Source of the DNA: a virus
Virus record (IMG/VR): IMGVR_UViG_3300046000_001242
Span: 1-20,011 of that record
Direction: 5' to 3' (one strand)
DNA: 20,011 bases
The notes under the pieces were generated by a model, which saw only the letters and a program-made list of their open reading frames with translations, searched no databases and was not told the origin of the DNA. Shown piece after piece: positions 5,724 through 13,051 of the stretch. The position numbers and the translations under genes are program-made. How positions within the stretch are numbered: the stretch's first letter is position 1; every line of letters starts with the position of its first letter.

Positions 5724-6098
5724 TCAAACGGCTTCGCTGTCTACGCTCGTCAAGGTTTCCGCATACCATGCGGTCGCAGTCTTTACGAAGTCTGCTTTGC
5801 CGTACTGACGAATTTCGGCCTTGACACAATGCCGCACGGCGTTTTCGACGGTGTTGTTGAGCGGTGAAACGCGGCTGTGACGCAAGTCCGACATACGCTC
5901 GTTAACCTTGTCAGCGAAATGCCGACCGTGGCGGCTGTCGAGCCACACCACGATGGCCTCGGGATTGCAGCGCGTGGCGTTGTAGAACTCGCTGATGGCA
6001 GCGGCCCACGCCCGACGCTTGTTGGTGCGGATGGTTCCGTAGAACCCGAACTTGGCGTTCTGCGTGGCGGGGAGAGAAATCGTGATGGTCGCGGTCAT
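5724..6098 (-). CDS. First gene of the left operon, hypothetical (124 aa)
   Basis: The ATG at 6096-6098 lies seven bases behind AGGAG and about 30 bases downstream of the predicted leftward start point, which makes this the first gene of the early left transcript. The product starts MTATITISLPATQNAKFGFYG and continues through RAWAAAISEFYNATRC and EAIVVWLDSRHGRHFADKV, suggesting a mixed alpha/beta protein. A basic C-terminal part follows. First genes of early phage operons often act on the host, but no motif assigns this one. Confidence 0.7.
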   Translation of the reverse strand: MTATITISLPATQNAKFGFYGTIRTNKRRAWAAAISEFYNATRCNPEAIVVWLDSRHGRHFADKVNERMSDLRHSRVSPLNNTVENAVRHCVKAEIRQYGKADFVKTATAWYAETLTSVDSEAV

Positions 6099-6135: not shown

Positions 6136-6163
6136 AGGTTAACACAAGTTTACCCCCTGTCAA
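6136..6163 (-). promoter_or_regulatory. Leftward early promoter
   Basis: On the minus strand a perfect TTGACA -35 box (6158-6163) is followed after 16 bases by TAACCT (6136-6141). Transcription would start near 6129, about 30 bases before the first left-operon gene. The operator-like palindrome at 6137-6154 lies between and over the two boxes, so a bound repressor would block RNA polymerase. This is the natural early left promoter, analogous to lambda pL. Confidence 0.6.
6137..6154. promoter_or_regulatory. Operator-like palindrome O1
   Basis: GGTTAAC-ACAA-GTTTACC is an 18-bp inverted repeat with six of seven matching pairs. It overlaps the leftward promoter. Its half-site GTTAACC recurs in the second element at 6181-6198 with the same spacing. 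The likely ligand is the helix-turn-helix protein encoded at 6207. Confidence 0.55.
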
Positions 6164-6171
6164 CACCCCCC

Positions 6172-6199
6172 TTGAATTATTTTTCACCCTCGTTAACCT
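6172..6199 (+). promoter_or_regulatory. Rightward repressor promoter (leaderless transcript)
   Basis: TTGAAT (6172-6177) and TAACCT (6194-6199) are separated by 16 bases, the same -10 box and spacing as the leftward promoter. The expected start point falls on or next to the A of the repressor ATG at 6207, and no ribosome binding site precedes that ATG. The message would therefore be leaderless, as lambda cI is from pRM. Confidence 0.5.
6181..6198. promoter_or_regulatory. Operator-like palindrome O2 (weaker)
   Basis: TTTTCAC-CCTC-GTTAACC has the same 7-4-7 geometry as O1 and a perfect right half-site, but only four of seven left-half bases fit. It covers the -10 box and spacer of the rightward repressor promoter, which suggests autoregulation. 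The centres of O1 and O2 are 44 bp apart. Confidence 0.42.
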
Positions 6200-6206
6200 C
6201 CCCGGT

Positions 6207-6428
6207 ATGGACATCCAAGCCGCCCTTGCCGTTGCAGGCTCCAAAGCCGCCCTCGCCCGTAAACTCGGGGTTAGCCGTCCGGCTGTTAGCAGGTGGGTCA
6301 AGGCAGGCAAACTGCCTGCTATGCGGGTCTGGCAATGGAAGGCTCTGGAAGCCTTGCCCCCGCAGATTGCAGCCGATTCTACGGCCACCCCGCTACCTAC
6401 CCCTGCCCTGCATCACGAGCCGCTGTAA
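6207..6428 (+). CDS. Cro/YdaS-like helix-turn-helix repressor
   Basis: A 73-residue protein whose N-terminal half is a classic helix-turn-helix: GSKAALARKLGVSRPAVSRW spans residues 11-30, followed by VKAGKLPAMRVWQ. This layout matches small Cro/YdaS-type regulators of phages and prophages. The Pro- and Ala-rich C-terminus after residue 50 is probably disordered, and there is no LexA-like peptidase domain, so it is not a full CI repressor. It lies directly beside two divergent promoters and two palindromes, the probable operators. No Shine-Dalgarno sequence precedes the ATG, which fits a leaderless message. A terminator-like hairpin follows about 20 bases after the stop. Confidence 0.85.
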   Translation: MDIQAALAVAGSKAALARKLGVSRPAVSRWVKAGKLPAMRVWQWKALEALPPQIAADSTATPLPTPALHHEPL

Positions 6429-6446
6429 TCGCGCCCACGGCGTTCT

Positions 6447-6473
6447 GTGGGAAAAAATCCCACGGTGTTTTTT
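6447..6473 (+). terminator. Probable terminator of the repressor gene
   Basis: GTGGGA (6447-6452) and TCCCAC (6458-6463) form a 6-bp stem around an A5 loop, followed after GGTG by six T residues (6468-6473). It lies 19 bases beyond the repressor stop. The same bases can form competing hairpins: CCCAC (6434-6438) with GTGGG, or TGGGAAAAAA (6448-6457) with TTTTTTCCCA (6468-6477). Confidence 0.55.
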
Positions 6474-6482
6474 CCCATTTGC

Positions 6483-6573
6483 GGCTTCTGCGGCTTTTTC
6501 CTGAAAGCACCGTTAGCGCGTGCGCGCGCGTATACGGGGGGACTAGGTAAAAGACGCAAAAGACGCAGAAGCC
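6483..6573. repeat. Inverted and tandem short repeats downstream of the repressor
   Basis: GGCTTCTGCG at 6483-6492 is repeated in inverse orientation as CGCAGAAGCC at 6564-6573. Inside the second arm, AAAGACGCA is tandemly repeated (about 6550-6568), and the first arm contains a doubled GCGGCTT pattern. An alternating purine-pyrimidine run (GCGTGCGCGCGCGTATAC, about 6517-6534) lies between the arms. Function unknown; an origin or a binding region is possible. Confidence 0.5.
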
Positions 6574-6588
6574 CCCAGAAACGACAAA

Positions 6589-6607
6589 CCCCCGCACTTG
6601 GCGGGGG
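6589..6607. terminator. Bidirectional-looking GC hairpin
   Basis: CCCCCGC (6589-6595), loop ACTTG and GCGGGGG (6601-6607) form a perfect 7-bp stem. On the minus strand it is followed by TTTGTCGTTT, a weak U-rich tract; on the plus strand no U-run follows. It may block leftward readthrough into the control region. Confidence 0.4.
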
Positions 6608-6608
6608 C

Positions 6609-7017
6609 TTGACGGGCCGGGGGGAATGGCCTTACGCTTGAGATGCTGTTCTCGCGTGATGGTTAATTTACATGGCTGTTCTAGCCCTGTCAAACACCCC
6701 ACCACGCGACCCCTTGATACGGGCATCTGTCACCGGCGGGGTGGGTGCAATCCCCACATGATGTTCAATCATCGACCAGACACCGGAAACCACGGTCTGG
6801 CGGGTCTAACAACCGCGTCCATACGGGCATAGGTTGGACTCTCTTGGCTCCCAATGTTCTTGGGGGTTAGGGGGGTCCTTTCCCGGTCCTCCGAGCATGG
6901 GTGTTAAGAAACAATCCTACAGAGATAAATCCTAAATCTTAAAAGCCTGAACTAAAGTTGTTGCATTAACCTCCGTGAATAGATACGCTTGTCCTGTCTA
7001 ACCACAGAGAGGTTTTT
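6609..7017. other. Structured non-coding region before the right operon
   Basis: No convincing gene is seen over roughly 400 bases. Several hairpins can be drawn: CACCCC (6695-6700) with GGGGTG (6738-6743), CCAGAC (6776-6781) with GTCTGG (6795-6800), and CCCAA-TGTTC-TTGGG near 6850-6864. ATACGGGCAT is directly repeated at 6717-6726 and 6821-6830. An AT-rich stretch at about 6903-6970 carries AATCCTA at 6913 and 6928 and AATCTTA at 6935. A possible promoter (TTGACG at 6609-6614, TACGCT at 6633-6638) could transcribe the region. It could be a replication origin with an unwinding element, or a regulatory RNA; neither is proven. Confidence 0.4.
6961..6989 (+). promoter_or_regulatory. Candidate promoter of the right operon
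   Basis: TTGCAT (6961-6966) and TACGCT (6984-6989) are separated by 17 bases. Transcription would start near 6996, about 20 bases before the first right-operon gene. The -10 box is weak by consensus, but the same TACGCT recurs in the candidate promoter near 6609. Confidence 0.35.
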
Positions 7018-7548
7018 ATGCACGAACTAGACGAAGCCGCATGGGAACGCTGGGTCGCCTACCGCAAGGCGATTCGCAAGCCCATTAAGGAAGCATCCGA
7101 ACACGCGATGAAACTCAAACTCGCGCGCTTCGGTGCTGACCAAGATGCGGTGGTGAGCCAGAGCATCGCCAACCAGTATCAAGGTTTGTTTGAACTGAAG
7201 GACAAGAAGAAGCCCGACCGCCCGACCAAAAGCCCGGAGCAGAAGGCGCAGGACGATGCGCTTTTCGTGCAGGCGCAGGAACGCTCTGCGAGGGCGTGGG
7301 ACAAACTGGAACCCTCCCCGCTGAACCGCCTGAAACTCTGTGACGCGCTTTGGGCGCGCTACACCTTCATGGAGGACAGCGAGGACGCGCGCGACAAGAT
7401 GGAGTGGCTGCGCGGCGTCATTGCGATGCACTTGCGAGAGGCCGAGCCGACCGAGGTGCTTGCCGACCCGCATCTTCGGACGATGGTGTTCTGTCTGTTT
7501 GGCCCGCGAGGTATCTCGCGCTTGAAGGAAAGGGAGGTGAAGCCATGA
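7018..7548 (+). CDS. Replication-type phage protein (176 aa)
   Basis: The ATG at 7018 has AGAGAGG five bases upstream. The N-terminal 60 residues (DEAAWERWVAYRKAIRKPIK, then a Lys-rich helix and VVSQSIANQYQGLFEL) resemble the C-terminal region of phage replication-initiation or helicase-loader proteins, in which an aromatic-rich helix and the 'qSiangwqGLf' pattern recur. A Lys/Pro-rich linker and a helical C-terminal half (PLNRLKLCDALWARYTFMED) follow. As first gene of the right operon, after an AT-rich region, it is a good candidate for an origin-binding or helicase-recruiting factor. No ATPase motif is present, so it is not the helicase. The family match is from memory only. Confidence 0.62.
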   Translation: MHELDEAAWERWVAYRKAIRKPIKEASEHAMKLKLARFGADQDAVVSQSIANQYQGLFELKDKKKPDRPTKSPEQKAQDDALFVQAQERSARAWDKLEPSPLNRLKLCDALWARYTFMEDSEDARDKMEWLRGVIAMHLREAEPTEVLADPHLRTMVFCLFGPRGISRLKEREVKP

Positions 7549-7772
7549 GCATCAACGACGGCGGCCCGGCGTTTCCGACCGCGCCCGTACCGACTTGGCT
7601 AGACCAGAAGCGCGAGATGTGGGCGCTGCGCGACTGGTTCGCTACCCACGCGACCGACGCTGACATCGCGGCGATTCAGAACCCGCCGCACGGGGCGCAG
7701 AACATTTCGCGGTATGAGGCGCGGTACATCCACGCCGACGCCATGCTGCGGGCGCGGGAGGTGAAGCCGTGA
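7545..7772 (+). CDS. Small phage protein (DGGPAFP type, 75 aa)
   Basis: I take the ATG at 7545, which overlaps the previous stop by ATGA and lies behind GGGAGG. The product begins MSINDGGPAFPTAPVP and continues ALRDWFATHATDADIAA, a layout I recognise from small uncharacterised phage proteins with DGGPAFP and (S/T)LRDWFA segments. It ends REVKP, the same five residues as the preceding protein, because the ribosome-binding region GGGAGGTGAAGCC is duplicated. Function unknown. Confidence 0.7.
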   Translation: MSINDGGPAFPTAPVPTWLDQKREMWALRDWFATHATDADIAAIQNPPHGAQNISRYEARYIHADAMLRAREVKP

Positions 7773-8038
7773 GCGACATCACCCTGCCCCGCGCTGTGGT
7801 CTGGAGATTACACGCGGCGTTCAGAGACGCGGACAAAACGATTAGGCCAAGCGGCGAGAAATCGGATTACAGCGCCGAAATCGCCGCCCTCGACGCCGCG
7901 CTCGCGGAGCCGGACGCCATCGCCCGAGCGGTCGAGGCCGAGCGGGAGGCGATTTGCCCGATTGTTTACGGGCTGTGCGTGTCGGACAACAACGCGCAGG
8001 AAATCGTCAACGCCATCCGTGCGAGGGGGAGCAAATGA
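7769..8038 (+). CDS. Hypothetical helical protein (89 aa)
   Basis: The start is GTG at 7769, overlapping the previous stop (GTGA) behind GGGAGG. The protein is largely helical and Ala- and Glu-rich (AEIAALDAALAEPDAIARAV), ending in a segment with CPIVYGLCVSDNNAQ. No known family is recognised and there is no membrane segment. Its stop overlaps the next start (ATGA at 8035-8038). Confidence 0.62.
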   Translation: MSDITLPRAVVWRLHAAFRDADKTIRPSGEKSDYSAEIAALDAALAEPDAIARAVEAEREAICPIVYGLCVSDNNAQEIVNAIRARGSK

Positions 8039-8211
8039 CCCGCACCTGTAAACAATGCGGTCAGAAGTTCGCGGGCGCGTCGAGCATTCTTCAGCATCGC
8101 AGCGGTGCGTGCGGTAGCGAGGAACTGCTGAAGTCTCGCGGCTGGGTTAAGACCCGCGCAGGATGGGTATCGCCCCAACGCGCAGCGCACGACAAACGCC
8201 GTGGAGTTTGA
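8035..8211 (+). CDS. Small zinc-finger-like protein (58 aa)
   Basis: The ATG at 8035 overlaps the upstream stop. The N-terminus holds a compact metal-binding pattern, TCKQCGQKF (Cys-x2-Cys) followed by LQHRSGAC (His-x4-Cys), consistent with a single zinc finger. A basic tail with SRGWVKTRAGWVSP follows. Such tiny finger proteins in phage early operons often bind nucleic acid or a host protein. It directly precedes two nuclease-like proteins, but no functional link is shown. Its last 11 bases overlap the next reading frame. Confidence 0.66.
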   Translation: MTRTCKQCGQKFAGASSILQHRSGACGSEELLKSRGWVKTRAGWVSPQRAAHDKRRGV

Positions 8212-11720: not shown

Positions 11721-13051
11721 AGCAGCGGGTAGAACTCCCGTACCGCCCTAGACGGGCTTTCCTGCCGTTCCATGAGCGCACCAAGCGGTGGGCCTGCCTC
11801 GTCGCGCATCGAAGAGCAGGAAAAACAGTCGCAGCGGTTAACGACATCATCCGCGCAGCCTTTATGTACCGGGGGCCGAATGGCCTCTTCGGGTATGTCG
11901 CTCCCTACCAGAACCAAGCACGCCGCATTGCGTGGGACTACTTCAAGCACTACGCCCAGCCGCTCATCAAAGATGCAAACGAAGCGCAAATGACCCTGAC
12001 GCTGGTTAACGGCGCGAAGATAGGACTGTTTGGAGCCGACAACGCAGATGCGATGCGCGGCCTCGGGTTCAGCGGCCTGTACCTCGATGAATACGGTGAC
12101 TTCAAGCCGAGCGTGTTTGGAAGCGTGTTAAGAGCCGCCCTCGCTGACAAGGGCGGTTGGTGCGTCTTTGCAGGCACTCCGAAGGGACGCAATCAGTTCT
12201 ACGACATCTACCAGACAGCCCAACGCCTGCCCGACGAATGGTTCCTGTTGCGCCTACCTGCCAGCGAGTCAGGGCTGCTGCCCCAAAGCGAACTTAACGC
12301 AGCGAAAGCCCAACTGTCGGAAGACCAATACCTCCAAGAGTTCGAGTGCAGTTTCGAGGCGGCTATCCTCGGCGCGTTTTACGGCACAGAGATGCGACAG
12401 GCAGAGCCGCGTATTAACGAGCGTGTAGTCTTTGAGCCGGGGTATCCGGTACACACCGCGTGGGACTTGGGGTATCGAGACGACACCGCGATATTTTGGT
12501 ATCAGGTCGTGGGCGGCGAGGTGCGCGTCATCGACTTCTACGCAGTCTCGGGTGCAGATATTCGCACCATCGCAGAGGTAGTCGTTAACAAGGGTTACAC
12601 CTACGGCAAGCATTACCTGCCGCATGACGCGCGCGCGAAGAGCCTACAGACGGGGCGCAGCATCGTGGAGCAGTTGGCCGACCACCTCGGCATCGGCAGC
12701 CTCTCGGTCGTGCCAAACATCGGATTGCAGGACGGAATCCAAGCGGTGCGCCAGATGCTCCCGCGCACTTGGTTCAACTCCGTGCGTTGCGGCGATGGCA
12801 TTGAGGCTTTACGCCAGTATCAACGGGAGTATGATGAGGACAAGAAAGCGTTTAGGGCATCACCCCGACACGATTGGACATCACACCCTGCTGACGCTTT
12901 CCGTATGCTGGCAGTTGCGTGGAGGCAGGAGCCTGCCGCGCAAAAGCCGTTGGAGAGCAAGGTGCTTATCGTTGGGCCGCAAAATCAGGTCACGCTCAAC
13001 GATATGTGGCAGGTACACGACCGAAGCGTCTCTAGGAGGGCGCGCATATGA
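11717..13051 (+). CDS. terL: Terminase large subunit
   Basis: The start is GTG at 11717, overlapping the small subunit stop; a TTG at 11702 is the only alternative. The 444-residue product has a Walker A motif, AHRRAGKT (30-37), a Walker B motif, LYLDEYGD with the acidic pair near 124-125, and a coupling segment at FAGTPKGRNQFYD. The nuclease domain has AWDLGYRDDTAIFW (first Asp at about 250), LPHDAR (301-306) and HPADAFR (390-396). It is the ATP-driven motor and headful or site-specific nuclease that docks on the portal. Length and motif order are normal. The next gene overlaps by ATGA. Confidence 0.95.
   Translation: MKQRVELPYRPRRAFLPFHERTKRWACLVAHRRAGKTVAAVNDIIRAAFMYRGPNGLFGYVAPYQNQARRIAWDYFKHYAQPLIKDANEAQMTLTLVNGAKIGLFGADNADAMRGLGFSGLYLDEYGDFKPSVFGSVLRAALADKGGWCVFAGTPKGRNQFYDIYQTAQRLPDEWFLLRLPASESGLLPQSELNAAKAQLSEDQYLQEFECSFEAAILGAFYGTEMRQAEPRINERVVFEPGYPVHTAWDLGYRDDTAIFWYQVVGGEVRVIDFYAVSGADIRTIAEVVVNKGYTYGKHYLPHDARAKSLQTGRSIVEQLADHLGIGSLSVVPNIGLQDGIQAVRQMLPRTWFNSVRCGDGIEALRQYQREYDEDKKAFRASPRHDWTSHPADAFRMLAVAWRQEPAAQKPLESKVLIVGPQNQVTLNDMWQVHDRSVSRRARI

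Follow-up and report, generated by a model that had tools for sequence, protein, structure and literature searches.

A predicted leaderless Cro-type repressor gene and three candidate operators in the early control region of a clade of uncultivated phages

The control region and its relatives

The window, by which is meant the whole 20,011-nt stretch of DNA that was analysed (a 20-kb virus record), is organized around a control region at approximately 6.1–7.0 kb, with recombination genes (encoding a Sak annealing protein and a YqaJ nuclease) reading leftward and genes for replication, packaging and head proteins reading rightward. The features of the control region and its flanks are as follows.

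5724–6098, minus strand: first leftward gene under PL (phrog_8020), with ATG at 6098 and the Shine–Dalgarno (SD) sequence AGGAG
6163–6158 (−35) and 6141–6136 (−10), minus strand: PL, predicted leftward early promoter, TTGACA-16-TAACCT
6137–6154: O1, predicted 7-4-7 operator GGTTAAC-ACAA-GTTTACC, covering the PL −10 and spacer
6172–6177 (−35) and 6194–6199 (−10), plus strand: PM, predicted rightward repressor promoter, TTGAAT-16-TAACCT, with elements invariant in 28 regions
6181–6198: O2, predicted asymmetric operator TTTTCAC-CCTC-GTTAACC, covering the PM spacer and −10
6207–6428, plus strand: Cro/YdaS-type repressor gene, 73 aa, no ribosome binding site, probably leaderless
6579–6658, minus strand: predicted structured small RNA of ~80 nt, folding into three hairpins and having a C-rich loop, with a terminator hairpin at its end
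6665–6693, minus strand: P4, predicted small-RNA promoter, TTGACA-17-TAAATT, with 10/12 consensus matches; conserved, with varying −10 letters
6961–6989, plus strand: PR, predicted replication-gene promoter, TTGCAT-17-TACGCT, leadered, with SD AGAGAGG
6964–6981: O3, predicted operator CATTAAC-CTCC-GTGAATA, inside PR and ahead of the gene at 7018
7018–7548, plus strand: replication gene (phrog_678, 'replication initiation O-like'), behind PR and O3

Elsewhere in the window, a complete tRNA-Gln (TTG) gene is found at 1173–1244 on the minus strand, where it overlaps the endolysin gene's end by 2 nt.

A scan of IMG/VR yielded 80 relatives of the repressor, which together with the window make up 81 loci; these collapse to 28 distinct 75-nt regions upstream of the repressor gene and amount to few independent lineages. 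The members of this clade are uncultivated phages, and the repressor sequence is nearly invariant among them. Among the INPHARED phages, no match was obtained either by a nucleotide search with the control region or by tblastn with the repressor, and among bacteria and archaea (genomes of 84,980 species) a single distant repressor homologue was seen, in a Phenylobacterium MAG (L082), the gene of which has an SD and is without operators of the type described below. Additional scans for distant relatives recovered, for the most part, the same clade again. Two genomes of the clade, G001 and G004 (~34.3 and 34.5 kb), appear to be complete, since the ends of the former overlap by 2,320 bp at 99.96 % identity and the latter has a 127-bp exact end repeat.

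The repressor protein

The 73-aa protein matches the Pfam family PF15943 (YdaS) at 6.8e-9, above the cut-off, and P22_Cro at 2.8e-6, just under the cut-off of that family; its solved relatives are the Cro proteins of Xfaso 1 and Pfl 6. The structure model (mean pLDDT 75) comprises four helices and a poorly predicted tail, and its top Foldseek matches are the Cro proteins of Xfaso 1 and N15, with P22 Cro within the first ten, at a probability of about 1 but with E-values of only about 0.04 to 0.4. By sequence and by modelled fold, the repressor belongs to the Cro family, in agreement with the Cro/YdaS-type assignment made in an earlier note on this DNA. The Pfam name 'toxin' for YdaS has been disputed, and YdaS has been argued to be the equivalent of Cro (PMC5917428, PMC9986795).

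A second small helix–turn–helix (HTH) protein, of 55 aa, is encoded among the rightward early genes of G001 (7644–7811 of locus L084, plus strand); it is also present in L026, L031, L038 and L087, and was not found in the window.

The divergent promoters and the repressor message

The earlier note had described two divergent promoters that share the −10 TAACCT and a 16-bp spacing, with TTGACA on the left and TTGAAT on the right, and these elements, sigma-70-like in character, are indeed present at the positions given. PL, in which TGT stands immediately ahead of the −10 (extended −10), would direct transcription of the gene at 6098–5724 and then of the recombination genes. Neither PL nor PM was called by a generic promoter scan, since their −10 hexamers agree with TATAAT at no more than 3/6 positions (T1, A2 and T6), and the support for both as promoters is comparative: in 28/28 distinct regions, PM shows no change in its TTG, its 16-bp spacing or CGTTAAC[CT]T, and the PL −35 is retained in nearly all relatives, with the −10 relocated in a second class.

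Each of these promoters had also been described as overlapped by an 18-bp palindrome. The description holds for O1, which departs from GGTTAAC-N4-GTTAACC by one mismatch and pairs at 6/7 positions. 'Palindrome' is too generous a word for O2, which has three mismatches to the same motif and pairs at only 4/7 positions, one of its arms being perfect and the other weak (TTT[CT]AC). In the second class (45 loci), O1 reads GTTAAC-N4-GTCAAC, is located ~12 nt closer to PM and adjoins the leftward −35; the site has thus acquired a new place and a new sequence, yet two arms separated by N4 have been kept. Activation of PM from O1 (centred at about −61 in the window) was weighed but given up in view of this ~12-nt displacement, and within the leftward gene the GTTAAC at 5901 was rejected as an extra site for want of a counterpart in the complete genome G001.

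The upstream regions of L013, L015, L026 and L076 are mosaic: either of two PL/O1 modules may be joined to differing PM/O2 modules, and in the second PL module the leftward gene is frequently preceded by a hairpin-like repeat, GGTCGTTTGTGACC.

The repressor ATG of the window, at 6207, lies 7 nt past the PM −10 and is not preceded by an SD. The distance between the −10 and the ATG is 7 nt in 18 regions, 8 nt in 8 and 6 nt in 2, and is therefore confined to 6–8 nt in 28/28, with the nucleotides directly before the ATG varying freely. The anti-SD energies ahead of the repressor range from +1.2 to −2.7 kcal/mol (20 distinct contexts), compared with −4.5 or lower for 20 of the 27 other gene starts tested in the window, the leftward gene and the replication gene being served by AGGAG and AGAGAGG, respectively; a few other genes of the window are likewise without a clear SD. 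A pyrimidine precedes the A of the repressor ATG in 19/20 contexts, as expected of a +1 A. These features point to a repressor mRNA that is probably leaderless, starting at A6207 or 1–2 nt away, and bear out the earlier suggestion that the rightward start falls on an ATG without a ribosome binding site. Leaderlessness is not a trait of the protein family, since the gene of the distant homologue L082 has an SD. It is very unlikely that the message comes instead from read-through or a remote promoter and is translated from an unusual site, as the −10s of PL and PM, weak by consensus, might be taken to suggest, given that a fixed 16-bp −35/−10 pair stops 6–8 nt short of the ATG in all 28 regions, that none of these regions has an SD and that the window offers no in-frame start farther upstream.

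A third candidate operator and the operator motif

The search for additional sites of this type, which the earlier note had recommended, revealed one further conserved site, O3, which its author had missed. In 56/56 loci, namely those that reach far enough downstream, O3 is the top match to GTTAAC-N4-GTTAAC in the interval from 250 to 1500 nt past the repressor start. Among relatives its letters change (ATTAAC-CTCC-GTGAAC, GTTCAC-CTGA-GTTAAC, GTTTAC-CTCC-GTTAAC and GTTAAC-CGCC-GTAAAC) but neither arm nor the N4 gap is lost; the surrounding PR is retained as TTGC[AG]T-17-TANNNT, with variable −10 letters. The copy in the window has three core mismatches and, taken alone, a p of about 0.25, compared with one or two mismatches (p 0–0.05) in relatives, from which the support for the window O3 as a candidate operator comes.

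The window as a whole contains four matches to GGTTAAC-N4-GTTAACC at three or fewer mismatches, against 0.49 expected, and two separate core matches (two or fewer mismatches over the 12 GTTAAC bases) within 110 nt before the ATG occurred in 0.025 % of Markov randomizations. Taken together, the sites have the consensus GTTNAC-N4-GTNAAC. Matrices built from one class of operator recover the other classes among the best-ranked sites: a matrix from O1 sites absent from the window ranked O2 third in 20 kb, the O1-trained matrix ranked O3 third in G005, and an O3-trained matrix ranked O1 second and O2 third in G001. A high-scoring site at 12583 falls within the terminase coding sequence and was treated as coding conservation.

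The conservation of these sites cannot be credited to protein binding alone, since some letters serve both promoter and operator. The GTTAAC boxes might even be promoter elements only (an extended −10, GTTAAC[CT]T), with the protein binding elsewhere; the overlap of GTTAAC with the −10 in both PL and PM and the weak second arm of O2 would accord with such a reading, which is nevertheless improbable, given that the arms of O3 and of the second-class O1 lie in the promoter spacer, off the −10, with an identical N4 gap, and that the operator matrices detect one another's sites.

A predicted small RNA between the repressor and replication genes

In 78/81 loci, a leftward TTGAC[AT]-17-(T/C)ANNNT is kept and is followed by the predicted RNA of ~80 nt, the other three loci ending too soon; in the window, the RNA is flanked by the repressor stop at 6428 and the gene at 7018. 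RNAalifold alone gave a partial structure because the C-tract slips in the alignment, and the hairpins were therefore additionally read sequence by sequence. Across 35 distinct sequences, compensatory changes are present in all three hairpins (ACGC/GCGT to ACCTC/GAGGT, GGCC/GGCC to GGGC/GCCC and CCCCC/GGGGG to CCCTCC/GGAGGG). For hairpins 1 and 3, 92.4 % of cells pair, compared with 84.0 % in shuffles, and the covariation is 0.157 compared with 0.054. A search with the model of the RNA returned one strong copy per genome and no copy in MW202691 or BUCT555, and no Rfam family attained its gathering score over the region. The RNA family may be new.

Two further elements were noted in this interval. 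A conserved plus-strand TTGACG-17/18-TANNCT faces P4 (TTGACG-18-TACGCT at 6608–6637 in the window) and may be either a promoter or the mirror of RNA stems; it was not counted as a third rightward promoter, since its letters also form the stems of the small RNA. Within the P4 spacer (6671–6687 in the window) lies a short dyad, the arms of which co-vary in most relatives (GGCT/AGCC, ACCCC/GGGGT, AACCG/CGGTT).

Proposed early-gene shut-off and alternative readings

The arrangement is best explained, and in our judgement quite likely produced, by one autoregulated Cro-type protein that would turn down early transcription via O1, O2 and O3. After infection, host RNA polymerase would fire PL, PM and PR, and the PM message, starting at or next to the AUG, would be translated without an SD. 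The 73-residue protein, as a dimer, would bind the GTTNAC-N4-GTNAAC sites and, as it accumulates, would block PL and thereby the recombination genes (O1), PR and thereby the replication gene (O3), and its own PM (O2). The presumed outcome is early transcription held at a steady low level, that is, a Cro-like role combined with negative autoregulation. Promoter-like elements, sites, spacing, conservation, the absence of an SD and membership in the Cro family are read directly from the sequence; dimer binding, repression, the exact 5′ end and the order in which the sites would be filled are what the model adds.

The regulator had been presented in the earlier note as the basis of a possible one-repressor switch, and a search for a CI-like gene had been proposed. 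No S24 (CI-type) repressor was found in 16 records, no tyrosine integrase in sets of 16 and of 4 records, and no serine recombinase in 10 records, the complete genomes G001 and G004 being among the records searched; a Pfam scan of 41 G001 proteins and the window repressor turned up nothing else related to lysogeny in the families listed. The 'one repressor' part of that proposal agrees with the absence of S24 and integrase families from the phages searched, but has to accommodate the 55-aa HTH protein of some relatives. A 'switch' in the lambda sense is not upheld: the searches revealed no gene for integration, and each of the three candidate operators is placed on core elements of its promoter. 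From such a placement one would expect straightforward repression, of the repressor as well as of the early promoters, and not a pair of alternative stable states; the PL/PM pair is not a left/right decision point, because the replication genes have their own promoter and operator, O3. Since the arrangement fails the defining tests of a lambda-type switch, Cro-type early-gene shut-off is the simplest reading.

A different matter, which concerns ancestry and is compatible with early-gene shut-off, is whether the region is a decayed temperate control region, in which a lambda- or P22-like ancestor lost cI and the integrase and kept cro, the operators and an OOP-like RNA. We regard this as possible but doubtful. 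The order of a Cro-like gene, a leftward small RNA and an O-like gene mirrors that of lambda, and the capsid relatives include Mx8, which is a temperate phage, and a Bradyrhizobium phage, but in the complete genomes no trace of either cI or int was found.

A genuinely bistable switch run by one repressor, in which a high level of the protein would maintain a quiescent, possibly plasmid-like state and a low level would permit lytic growth, is considered unlikely. The divergent promoters and related operators at a repressor gene do resemble immunity regions, and a leaderless message recalls those of lambda cI and of cI and cro in PY54 (PMC4488713). Against this, the records searched, including two complete genomes, contain no integrase, serine recombinase or S24 gene, the position of O2 on the core of PM predicts negative rather than positive autoregulation, and the single distant homologue among 84,980 species' genomes gives no sign of resident prophages. 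With similarly low probability, a one-protein module composed of a leaderless autoregulated Cro, three promoters and an OOP-positioned RNA might replace the CI/Cro pair and allow these integrase-less phages to choose between rapid lysis and a carried low-activity state.

Comparison with known phage systems

This region is a pared-down relative of phage control regions already described rather than a demonstrated switch between lysis and lysogeny. In lambda, the cI message transcribed from pRM is leaderless, and OOP is a leftward small RNA located between cro and O. The region described here resembles lambda in its probably leaderless repressor message and in the leftward small RNA between Cro-type and O-like genes, and differs in that the leaderless gene is Cro-type rather than CI, that neither CI nor an integrase was found, and that the RNA is without an accepted Rfam match. 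As with OOP, a short terminated leftward RNA is predicted here, from conservation, in the stretch that separates the cro side from the O gene; an antisense relation to a CII-type gene is not found, the RNA lying within the 6428–7018 gap.

The Cro proteins of P22, N15 and Xfaso 1 and the YdaS proteins of Rac-like prophages (PF15943, PF14549) are similar to the repressor in size, HTH, sequence and fold, and P22-type Cro/YdaS genes adjoin divergent early promoters, as here. In contrast to these systems, no CI partner was found, and the predicted operators are located on PL, on the repressor's own promoter and on the replication promoter.

In the Yersinia phage PY54, which is temperate and has both CI and Cro, the cI and cro mRNAs were found by RACE to be leaderless, with the AUG at the 5′ start, and Cro binds one short palindromic site and is believed not to repress its own gene (PMC4488713). 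The likeness lies in the repressor message, which is probably leaderless here as well, and in the short palindromic Cro site, predicted here; the difference is that one Cro site is present there, compared with three predicted sites here, the repressor's own promoter among them. Leaderless phage repressor messages are thus already known (lambda cI; PY54 cI and cro, PMC4488713). The present case differs in that leaderlessness is predicted for a Cro-type gene with no CI detected alongside it, and in that the candidate operators extend to this gene's own promoter as well as to the two early directions.

This makes the clade a comparatively well-supported case of a Cro-type regulator apparently working without CI, in which the predicted operators and leaderless start are fixed by dozens of related regions, and offers a compact and testable case in which to study the purpose of Cro in non-integrating phages. 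The recurrence of leaderless repressor translation in lambda cI, in PY54 cI and cro and, as predicted, in this clade raises the question of whether it is a recurring design.

The same divergent layout, read by eye from the sequence, is present in a distant environmental phage, MW202691 (Caudoviricetes sp. ctkAd229; L163), at 7860–8080, where TTGCTG-17-TAAACG is followed after 6 nt by the ATG of a Cro-like gene, a divergent TTGACA-17-TACAGT is present, GTAAAC/GTTTAC lies on both −10s and an O-like replication gene is located farther to the right. This phage differs in its 131-aa regulator, in the lack of a match to the small-RNA model and in its half-site, the last of which makes the co-evolution of protein and operator testable.
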